DNA of 64,000 nt from NCBI GenBank assembly GCA_018065085.1, contig JAGHUA010000039.1, forward strand, positions 1 through 64,000, given 5' to 3'. A program made the position numbers and the translations under genes. This stretch comes from Candidatus Liminaster caballi (GTDB taxonomy: Bacteria > Bacteroidota > Bacteroidia > Bacteroidales > UBA3663). Shown here one piece after another: positions 7,032-63,228 of the stretch (position 1 is the stretch's first letter; each line of letters opens with the position of its first letter). The notes beneath the pieces are model-generated. The model saw nothing but the letters and a program-made list of their open reading frames with translations, ran no database searches and had not been told where the DNA came from.

Positions 7032-7301
7032 TTTCCCAACTCTTAGGAAATGCCAACAAAACTTTTGTTAGGATTTCCCAACTCTTAGGAAATGCCGGCG
7101 AAACTTTTATTTGGATTTCCCAACTCTTAGGAAATGCCGACGAAACTTTTGTTTGGATTTCCCAACTCTTAGGAAATACCGGCGAAACTTTTATTTGGAT
7201 TTCCCAACTCTTAGGAAATACCGGCGAAACTTTTGTCAGGGTTTCCCAAGTCTTAGGAAATACCAACGAAACTTTTTTCAGTATTTCCCAAGACTTAGGA
7301 A
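7032..7301. repeat. seven-copy 42-bp tandem repeat
   Basis: The core TTTCCCAACTCTTAGGAAA recurs at 7032, 7074, 7116, 7158, 7200, 7242 and 7284, an exact 42-bp period. The last copy is degraded. Each core has TTTCC and GGAAA arms that could pair. The period is a multiple of three, so every frame stays open on both strands, which creates repetitive false open frames. The array lies upstream of the GH97 start and downstream of the small gene at 7338-7559. Confidence 0.9.
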
Positions 7302-16167: not shown

Positions 16168-16205
16168 TTTGATGTATTTTCCTATATAATATATAAAAAT
16201 CGGTG

Positions 16206-16213
16206 CAAAGATA
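16206..16213 (-). promoter_or_regulatory. -7 promoter element for the argS operon
   Basis: TATCTTTG on the minus strand followed by CACC. It forms a divergent pair with the element at 16256-16263, 42 bp away. Confidence 0.7.
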
Positions 16214-16255
16214 ATAAAAAATGGCATAAGTTGTACAAATATTCAAAAAAAAACG

Positions 16256-16263
16256 TATCTTTG
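16256..16263 (+). promoter_or_regulatory. -7 promoter element for the SufT-like gene
   Basis: TATCTTTG on the plus strand. A TTG at 16231-16233 lies at a plausible -33 distance. The leader to the ATG at 16284 is about 16 nt. Confidence 0.7.
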
Positions 16264-16283
16264 CACCCAAAATCAAGCATAAA

Positions 16284-23521: not shown

Positions 23522-24373
23522 ATGAGAAAATTTGCAGTTTTTCAGTTTTTGCCGCTTGCGTTGGCTGTTCTGCCGATGGTCTTTGGCGGCTTGGTATCGT
23601 GTGTTCCCGGTGTCAGAGGTGCGGAAGGTGAGCTGGTGCTCGACACCCTTCGCCTTGACAGCATTATCCCTCTTTTCGACGATGAGGCAGAACCTGCGCT
23701 TACCCTCGGCTATGAGGTGGAGAGGCCTGTGGGCGGATCTCCGCAGCTGGTCGGGTCGCTCGACCGTATGATCTGCTCGATGGTGGAGAACGGCGCCTAT
23801 CTCGATGCCGACAATGACGTGGCGTGCATGCTCGGCAAGTTTGTCGACTCTCATGCCGGTGCCTATCACGACGAGCTCAACGAGTTCACGAAGGACGAGC
23901 TCCGCAATAATGCGCTGTGGCTTAACTATGAGGCTTCGCTTCGTGGCAGGGTCATAGGCCAATACTGTGATTTCCTGAGCTATGAGGTGGTTTTCTACGG
24001 CTACAACGGCGGTGCTCACGGCCAGACGGTCTGCACGTGCTCGGTGTTCGACATGCGGCAGATGATGCCCCTTCAGCTGTCCAATGTCATCGACGAAGCC
24101 ACGATGCCTGTCGTCTCGCAGCTGTTCCTCGACAGGCTTGCGCTCTTCTTCGACTGTAGCGATTATGCCGACCTCAAGGCCAAAGGCTATCTGTTTGACT
24201 ACTCCGATCCCGGTCCTACGGAGAACTTCTTCTTCGATGAGAAGGGCATCACCTGGGTGTTCAATCAGTATGACATCGCTCCTTATGCCTACGGACAGCC
24301 AACGGTCACCCTCTCATGGGATGAACTCCAGCCGCTCCTCCCGTCCGAGTCGCCTGCGATGCGAGTCTTCTGA
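23522..24373 (+). CDS. DUF3298 (RsiV-like) lipoprotein
   Basis: A 283-residue protein with a lipoprotein signal (LPMVFGGLVSC, Cys at about residue 27). The middle contains FYGYNGGAHGQ, and the end (FNQYDIAPYAYGQPTVTLSWDEL) is the typical DUF3298 C-terminal segment, so it carries the DUF4163/DUF3298 arrangement known from the extracellular part of the anti-sigma factor RsiV. It has no cytoplasmic anti-sigma part and is probably a surface or periplasmic lipoprotein of unknown role. The ATG at 23522 follows directly after its promoter; the longer frame starts inside the TPR gene. Confidence 0.8.
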   Translation: MRKFAVFQFLPLALAVLPMVFGGLVSCVPGVRGAEGELVLDTLRLDSIIPLFDDEAEPALTLGYEVERPVGGSPQLVGSLDRMICSMVENGAYLDADNDVACMLGKFVDSHAGAYHDELNEFTKDELRNNALWLNYEASLRGRVIGQYCDFLSYEVVFYGYNGGAHGQTVCTCSVFDMRQMMPLQLSNVIDEATMPVVSQLFLDRLALFFDCSDYADLKAKGYLFDYSDPGPTENFFFDEKGITWVFNQYDIAPYAYGQPTVTLSWDELQPLLPSESPAMRVF

Positions 24374-24404
24374 ACCGGGCAGGCTTGCAAAACTTTTTCT
24401 ATTC

Positions 24405-24545
24405 TCTCTCCACGCTCAGGCAGGCCGCTGCAGATGCCTCCCCGAGCGATTGCGCGCATCGTCAAATCTCCGGCGCGGCTGTTCCCTGTGTCCCCCAACG
24501 CAGGGTGATTGCCGCCGAATTCGCTGCCTTGAGATTTGACGGTGC
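24405..24545 (-). ncRNA. candidate structured small RNA
   Basis: A minus-strand TATCTTTG element (24545-24552) points into a stretch without a good open frame that can fold strongly. An 11-bp perfect inverted repeat (24460-24470 with 24531-24541) encloses nested GC-rich arms (CCCTG/CAGGG, GGC/GCC). Just downstream is a second hairpin (24413-24425 with 24436-24448) with 11 Watson-Crick pairs, one G-U and one mismatch in 13. The wobble pair is G-U only if the minus strand is transcribed; on the plus strand it would be A-C. No clean T-run terminator is seen, so the 3' end is uncertain. It does not match the SRP RNA, RNase P or tmRNA signatures I know. Confidence 0.4.
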
Positions 24546-24552
24546 AAAGATA
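24545..24552 (-). promoter_or_regulatory. -7 promoter element of the candidate small RNA
   Basis: TATCTTTG on the minus strand followed by CACCGTC. No protein gene lies downstream on that strand before the opposing DUF3298 gene, which is why a non-coding transcript is proposed. Confidence 0.5.
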
Positions 24553-24681
24553 CGACATGAAAAGTGCGGTTTTCGCATTTTGCATTAAAAAAATTAATAA
24601 AAAATTCAATACGTCCGTTTCCGCATTCCTGCCATATCCTACAAACGTCTGATTTCCATACTTTTCCCCCTTTGGACGTTA

Positions 24682-24794
24682 TTCGGGAAAAGACACCTTG
24701 TTCAGGGAAAGACACCTTATTCAGGAAAAGATACCTTGTTCGGGGAAAAAGACACCTTATTCAGGGAAAGACAAACCTTGTTCGGGAAAGACGG
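24682..24794. repeat. six-unit ~20-bp tandem repeat
   Basis: Units of the form TTCAGGGAAAGACACCTT recur with a 19-21 bp period at about 24682, 24701, 24720, 24739, 24760 and 24781. Variable positions are CAGGG/CGGGG and the final TG/TA. Open frames across it are a by-product of the repeats. Confidence 0.75.
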
Positions 24795-24811
24795 TGTGTC
24801 GGTGTTACACT

Positions 24812-24954
24812 GCTACAGTGCTACAGTTCGAAATTTAACAGCAAACATCCAAGATTTATCTTTATATTTATATATATATAAATGTATATATATATAAATA
24901 TAAAAATTCTTTTTTGTTTTTCGCTTCCTTATTTTTCAACTGTAGCGCTGTAGC
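24812..24954. repeat. long inverted repeat around an AT-rich core
   Basis: GCTACAGTGCTACAGTT (24812-24828) is mirrored by AACTGTAGCGCTGTAGC (24938-24954) with a single wobble position. Each arm is itself a direct repeat of CTACAGTG-like words. The ~109 bp between is mostly TATATA-rich and partly palindromic (around 24863-24905). It sits upstream of rsmG, about 145 bp from its promoter. Function unknown. Confidence 0.65.
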
Positions 24955-25097
24955 GCTGCAACACTGCCCGGCGGTGCGGCTTTGGATAGATGGCCGAAAT
25001 TGTACACTGCTGTTTGCAAAACCGGGTAAATTTGGAAGATTTTACCTGCGCGCGTAAATTATTTGCCGAAATCCTTGAAAGTGTCAGAAAAATTGAG

Positions 25098-25105
25098 TAT
25101 ATTTG
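25098..25105 (+). promoter_or_regulatory. -7 promoter element of rsmG
   Basis: TATATTTG followed by CACC on the plus strand, 27 bp before the ATG at 25133. Confidence 0.65.
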
Positions 25106-25132
25106 CACCATATAAAACAAAGCCCCCGACCC

Positions 25133-25747
25133 ATGCAATTGGACCTGACACAATTCCCCCACCTGACCGAGACGCAGCTTGCACAGTTTGAGGCACTCGG
25201 CGACCTCTATACCGACTGGAACTCGAAGATCAATGTCATCTCGCGCAAGGATATTGACAACCTCTACCTGCATCACGTGCAGCATTCATTGGCCGTTGCC
25301 TGCTTCGTCAACTCCAGGATGGGCGGCTGGCGTCCGGGCACAACGGTGGTGGACGTGGGTTGCGGCGGTGGATTCCCGGGCGTGCCTCTTGCCATCATGT
25401 ATCCCGACGTCCGGTTCCTGCTCGTCGATAGGATAGGCAAGAAGGTCAGAGTGGCGCAGGCGGTGGCCGATGCGGTGGGATTGACCAACGTGGAGACGCG
25501 CCATGCCGGCATCGAGGAAGTCCGGCAGACGTTCGACTTCGCCGTGTCGCGAGCTGTGATGGAGCTGCCCGACCTCCTGAAGCTCGTCAGGCGATGCACA
25601 CGCCACGGCCTCATCTGCCTGAAGGGCGGCGACCTTGAGGCGGAACTCTCGCCTGCCATCTGCCGTGGCACGGTGGTCGAGCCGATAAGCCAATGGTTCG
25701 GCGATGAGTTCTTCGTGACAAAGTCGGTGGTCTATACGCCGTTCTGA
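25133..25747 (+). CDS. rsmG: 16S rRNA (guanine527-N7)-methyltransferase
   Basis: A 204-residue class I methyltransferase. The SAM-binding motif I is VVDVGCGGGFPGVPLAI, typical for RsmG/GidB, followed by LVDRIGKKVRVAQAVA and the FAVSRAV segment. It methylates N7 of G527 (E. coli numbering) in 16S rRNA. The upstream in-frame start (MHHIKQ) lies in the promoter region, so the ATG at 25133 is used. A spacer with a C9A8 homopolymer pair separates it from the MBL hydrolase gene. Confidence 0.93.
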   Translation: MQLDLTQFPHLTETQLAQFEALGDLYTDWNSKINVISRKDIDNLYLHHVQHSLAVACFVNSRMGGWRPGTTVVDVGCGGGFPGVPLAIMYPDVRFLLVDRIGKKVRVAQAVADAVGLTNVETRHAGIEEVRQTFDFAVSRAVMELPDLLKLVRRCTRHGLICLKGGDLEAELSPAICRGTVVEPISQWFGDEFFVTKSVVYTPF

Positions 25748-62991: not shown

Positions 62992-63228
62992 TGGTCGTCA
63001 AGAATTGAAGCCTAGGAAACTTACCTTTCTCTGATACATACCACATCAATGATGGTTGGCTTCAGCGTATAGAGGTTCTATGCGTAGGAATTGAGCCAAT
63101 CCGAAATATATTGATAGAAGATGCTTACACCTTTTGGGTGTGGGCATTATTCTTATATTTCGGAGAGGTCAGAGAACATTCCTAGGCTTCAACCTCAGAC
63201 GACCATAAGAAGAAGCTCACGCTCTTTT
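62992..63228 (+). ncRNA. candidate branched structured RNA
   Basis: A non-coding block with a long closed structure. Three consecutive perfect stems nest: 62992-62999 with 63198-63205 (8 bp), 63005-63018 with 63179-63192 (14 bp) and 63027-63034 with 63169-63176 (8 bp). Inside are two hairpins: 63056-63061/63094-63099 carrying 63066-63073/63077-63084, and 63101-63110/63154-63163 (10 bp) capped by an 11-bp stem around 63121-63147. Three pairs are G-U only if the plus strand is transcribed. A hairpin with a T-run (63207-63228) follows, like a terminator. tmRNA, SRP and RNase P signatures are absent. A MITE is the main alternative reading. Confidence 0.6.
63207..63228 (+). terminator. possible terminator of the structured RNA
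   Basis: AAGAAGAAGC and GCTCTTTTT can pair across the loop TCAC with G-U pairs and one mismatch, ending in five T residues. This is a moderate hairpin directly 3' of the structured block and 80 bp before the helicase gene. Confidence 0.4.

Follow-up and report, generated by a model that had tools for sequence, protein, structure and literature searches.

The window, the whole 64-kb stretch of DNA analysed here, carries a DUF3298 gene (PF11738 by Pfam; 23522-24373, plus strand) and, downstream of it on the same strand, rsmG. A spacer of 759 bp (24374-25132) separates the two genes. Within this spacer an extended promoter, TGCGnnnACCGCAnnnnnnATGTCGTATCTTTGC, is predicted on the minus strand at 24544-24577. 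The DUF3298 gene is convergent with this promoter; a transcript that reads through would be antisense to the gene's 3' end. The predicted non-coding transcript (24405-24539, minus strand), whose 5' end near 24539 is placed by the promoter position, may run into that 3' end. A plus-strand box in the same spacer, TATATTTG at 25098-25105, is likely the -7 box of rsmG itself, judging by its sequence.

The spacer is species-specific. Among eleven congener rsmG loci, six have DUF3298 directly upstream, with 0-11 bp between the two genes in the printed sequences. In four of the remaining five, a TPR gene and rsmG are divergent; the fifth has unrelated sequence. The closest congener by rsmG (G003, 78% identity) is likewise without the 759-bp spacer. 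Hence, this lineage seems to have gained the spacer by insertion or expansion. The congener sets are metagenome-assembled genomes (MAGs) of 63-90% completeness, and ORFs were called by length alone. A phage or plasmid origin was rejected, since the spacer gave no phage or plasmid matches.

The spacer also contains repeats of its own. About five tandem copies of a 19-bp repeat (AAAGACACCTTGTTCAGGG) lie at 24689-24792, and a similar array occurs at G000:C47:27769-27804 (L028). A 163-bp near-palindrome at 24802-24964 is 76% self-complementary, with 8-bp GTGCTACA/CTGTAGCG units at its ends. It is the strongest fold of the window given GC content, and a piece of it is repeated at G000:C3:3967-4001 (L027). 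GTAGC units resembling those of the near-palindrome are found just upstream of two promoters of the ACCGCA type described below (L068 and L071).

An initial annotation had noted a -7 element on the minus strand, and this observation holds. The box TATCTTTG (24552-24545, minus strand) has the TAnnTTTG expected of a sigma-ABfr promoter at -7. The TTTG expected near -33 is absent; a box containing ACCGCA sits there instead. In Flavobacterium the -33 motif is likewise reported absent. The extended arrangement (aTTCGnnnACCGCAAtgnnaATGTCGTATCTTTGC) is common to the window and 26 other sites, 27 distinct sites in all, spread over this genus and MAGs of other rumen Bacteroidales/Bacteroidaceae; controls with the reversed pattern gave 0. 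This clade-restricted type strongly supports the minus-strand promoter, more so than the initial annotation knew.

The annotation was also right that no protein gene lies behind the promoter. No sense ORF of at least 60 aa starts within 450 nt of it in the window, and there is no gene of annotated size. A small minus-strand protein was considered and rejected: the 106-aa ORF over the locus has no Pfam match. From the promoter sequence we infer that minus-strand transcription is likely.

The promoter type was recovered by several searches. When 24380-24600 was compared by BLAST with 15 congeners, the promoter part alone matched elsewhere. The pattern ACCGCAN6ATGTCGTATCTTTGC with at most two mismatches gave 10 sites in 5 of the 15 congener genomes (reversed control: 0). 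With at most one mismatch, it gave two sites in 393 genomes of the order, both in this genus. When 84,980 species genomes were scanned for exact matches, 20 stretches came up, all titled as Bacteroidaceae, Prevotellaceae or Bacteroidales MAGs. Several come from rumen or reticulum according to their titles, and three are sites of the genus set. Over the 27 sites, conservation reaches beyond the search pattern. It includes T-34 (25/27), G-31 (27/27) and A-21 (25/27), a TTCG at -34 to -31, and an upstream A-tract at -52 to -49 (22-25 of 27). The conserved unit stops at about the start site, which fits a promoter.

In the genus, each of the 10 sites is directed at a convergent ORF, whose 3' end lies 23-252 nt downstream. 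Five of the 10 copies stem from the same genome, which limits their independence. For comparison, of 27 other sites of the genus with a called ORF and only TATCTTTGCANNGTCAAA in common, 6 face a convergent 3' end (Fisher p = 2.3e-5). Four sites were kept out of this comparison: L082 and the second site of L088, which are of the ACCGCA type, and two for which no ORF was called. Outside the genus, placement is mixed. Of 26 sites, the window's excluded, 13 face a convergent ORF, seven a sense ORF and six neither. A sense gene is clearly driven at L061 and L071 and probably at L072, all outside the genus. In L062, L063, L075, L078 and L080 the ACCGCA promoter is followed by another TAnnTTTG, which in L062, L075 and L080 stands directly before the sense gene.

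A common RNA family behind these promoters was considered and seems less likely: L044, L045, L063, L069 and L079 share fragments, yet their folds differ. As a side observation, the clade-restricted box (24544-24577, minus strand, in the window; L044-L052 and L061-L080 elsewhere) mostly faces convergent genes within the genus and may mark a regulon. A sequence that we take to be boxA-like, GTTCTTTGAcatattg, lies 79-144 nt downstream of the promoter in L050, L051 and L073 and is absent from the window copy. BoxA sequences precede rRNA genes. Its occurrence after these three promoters suggests long non-coding transcripts.

An inverted repeat lies at the predicted start of the RNA. Its arms CGTCAAATCTC/GAGATTTGACG (24460-24470 and 24531-24541) form 11 perfect base pairs; extended to 24456-24470/24531-24545, they pair at 14 of 15 positions. 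This stem closes hairpin 1 (24456-24545, minus strand). The repeat and the GC-rich nested arms it was said to enclose are both present, the latter in the minimum-energy fold. The 5' arm had also been noted to begin at the expected transcript start. The position does coincide, but it is mostly explained by a shared initially transcribed sequence. With at most one mismatch, TCGTATCTTTGCANNGTCAAA occurs at 49 sites in 14 of the 15 genomes (control: 0), and CGTCAAA is by this sequence measure a common predicted transcript start in the genus. Because the 5' arm consists largely of CGTCAAA, finding it at the start site is no independent evidence. When 30 of the 49 sites were taken as loci, giving 31 distinct sites, a sense gene was driven at most of them (21/31). 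What is peculiar to the window is an 11-bp complement 60 nt downstream; the best of the other 30 sites has 8 bp.

Such a complement might be a DNA-level repeat. The promoter would then be spurious, and the inverted repeat would stem from an inverted duplicate of the initial transcribed bases (GCAnCGTCAAA) or be what is left of promoters placed face to face, without a functional RNA. Read on the plus strand, the second arm is GCATCGTCAAATCTC, which fits the promoter-proximal GCAnCGTCAAA found at those 49 sites. Promoter pairs form inverted repeats elsewhere too, divergent at 16202/16257 and face to face in L096, and the entire spacer is a recent repeat-rich insertion on this account. However, the plus strand has no -7 box before the second arm, and the minus-strand promoter has retained its extended box. 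We consider this origin unlikely. The 64-kb window has five inverted repeats that pair perfectly over 11 bp or more across a gap of 3-100, compared with 0-3 in each of 10 Markov simulations, which averaged about 1. Thus the repeat at the locus is unusual, not unique.

Other repeats of the window deserve mention in their own right. Two divergent TATCTTTGCACC-type promoter boxes at 16202-16267 form an 11-bp inverted repeat. A tandem array with a unit of about 40 bp (GAAACTTTTRTTTGGATTTCCCAACTCTTAGGAAATACCGGC) at 7100-7290 has a strong minus-strand fold. At 63100-63164, an 11-bp inverted repeat (TCCGAAATATA) with further pairing gives one of the window's strongest folds on the plus strand.

The locus region ranks among the more strongly folding 150-nt segments of the 64 kb given GC content. 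On the minus strand, 24395-24545 folds at -69.3 (z -4.5); on the plus strand the same region folds at -67.2 (z -5.0). Both strands fold about equally well, and the fold gives no strand choice. The second hairpin (24413-24448, minus strand) had been described as valid on the minus strand only. It is indeed part of the minimum-energy fold, but the plus strand also forms it, with a mismatch. An RNA from the predicted start at 24539 would reach -58.7 kcal/mol over 135 nt, a modest fold (z only -2.6; 3 of 200 shuffles as good). This lies below -0.05 kcal/mol per nt, a very lenient limit given in the excerpts of PMC7366714 used here.

The near-equal plus-strand fold, directly past the DUF3298 stop codon, could instead mean a 3'-end structure of the DUF3298 mRNA that stabilises or ends the transcript. 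The plus strand lacks a T-tract after the hairpins, however, and the conserved promoter box would be left unexplained. We regard this explanation as very improbable.

The initial annotation had proposed a small RNA. Its minus-strand promoter and the missing sense gene stand, but no terminator, Rfam match, sequence or structural homologue, or strand preference of folding accompanies them. Rfam gave no family above the gathering threshold at the locus, and BLAST found no homologue of the RNA body in the 15 congeners or in any of 393 genomes from the order. A covariance model, which has little power when built on one sequence as here, matched only itself in 15 genomes; across 39 sources there was one additional hit, a weak self-match that overlaps on the plus strand (E 0.11). 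6S RNA was rejected: nothing was found at the locus, and a weak Bacteroidales-1 match lies elsewhere in the genome (C42:39345-39590, 42.2 bits, below the cut-off). Two viral contigs (L121, L122) that share a 17-mer do not resemble the locus past about 25 nt and were taken as chance.

In its strict form, the proposal is a discrete trans-acting sRNA, about 130 nt long, with its 3' end behind hairpin 2. The promoter, two stable hairpins and the lack of a coding gene on the minus strand speak for it, as does the frequent strain specificity of such Bacteroides RNAs (PMC7366714, in excerpt). Yet hairpin 2 is not followed by a U-tract, and 24200-25200 contains no terminator-like site; an intrinsic terminator marks the high-confidence set of sRNAs in the quoted parts of that study. 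The RNA also shows zero conservation, and its fold is not strand-specific. We do not favour a discrete sRNA, although it is conceivable, and its chances appear low.

We think it fairly probable that the locus produces a species-specific non-coding minus-strand transcript, probably antisense into the DUF3298 3' end. Transcription from the minus-strand promoter would start near 24539, and the first 130 nt or so would form two hairpins. Since there is no intrinsic terminator, transcription would probably continue, so that from about 165 nt after the start the RNA would be antisense to the 3' end of the convergent DUF3298 mRNA. Any regulatory effect would likely be local, through interference between convergent transcription or a duplex at the DUF3298 3' end. 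In the same spacer, rsmG would be uncoupled from DUF3298 through its own promoter. Transcription at the locus may equally be without function.

Transcripts of this kind are already known and have been mapped by the hundreds in Bacteroides thetaiotaomicron (PMC7366714 and PMC10994844, as excerpted). There, 24% of start sites are antisense, and 78 cis-antisense and 124 intergenic sRNAs, many strain-specific, are given in the parts of PMC7366714 that we draw on. Going by the same parts, the window RNA resembles these sRNAs in its sigma-ABfr TAnnTTTG promoter without a sense gene, its antisense placement at a gene, its extensive predicted structure and its narrow conservation. It differs in being predicted from sequence alone, in its variant -33 box, in lacking a terminator and in its GC-rich body (60.5%, compared with means of 38% for antisense and 35% for intergenic sRNAs). 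The PUL-associated cis-antisense RNAs of the DonS family, likened here by their description in PMC7366714, are also encoded opposite a gene; unlike them, the window locus is not at a susC/PUL and has no susC-like partner. Bacteroidales-1/6S-like RNA (RF01693) is likewise a structured non-coding RNA of Bacteroidales, without a match at the window locus. As a single locus, the window thus adds one more plausible, unproven antisense or intergenic RNA candidate in a rumen-type gut bacterium.

The ACCGCA promoter type is the more interesting lead. We found no description of it in print. The second promoter motif of B. thetaiotaomicron, PM2, is associated with some sRNAs and is near-palindromic with -10 and -30 boxes, according to the excerpted text of PMC7366714; it was considered by this description. 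We tentatively suggest, with considerable doubt, that a group of rumen Bacteroidaceae has a dedicated promoter type, in which aTTCGnnnACCGCAAtg replaces the -33 element beside TCGTATCTTTGC, and which mostly starts non-coding transcripts toward convergent 3' ends. The window RNA would then be one member of an antisense regulon. If the box marks a set of non-coding transcripts, it would suggest that rumen Bacteroidaceae have a sigma factor or regulator of their own. It would also provide a sequence tag with which to search for non-coding RNAs where genomes are available from metagenomes alone.
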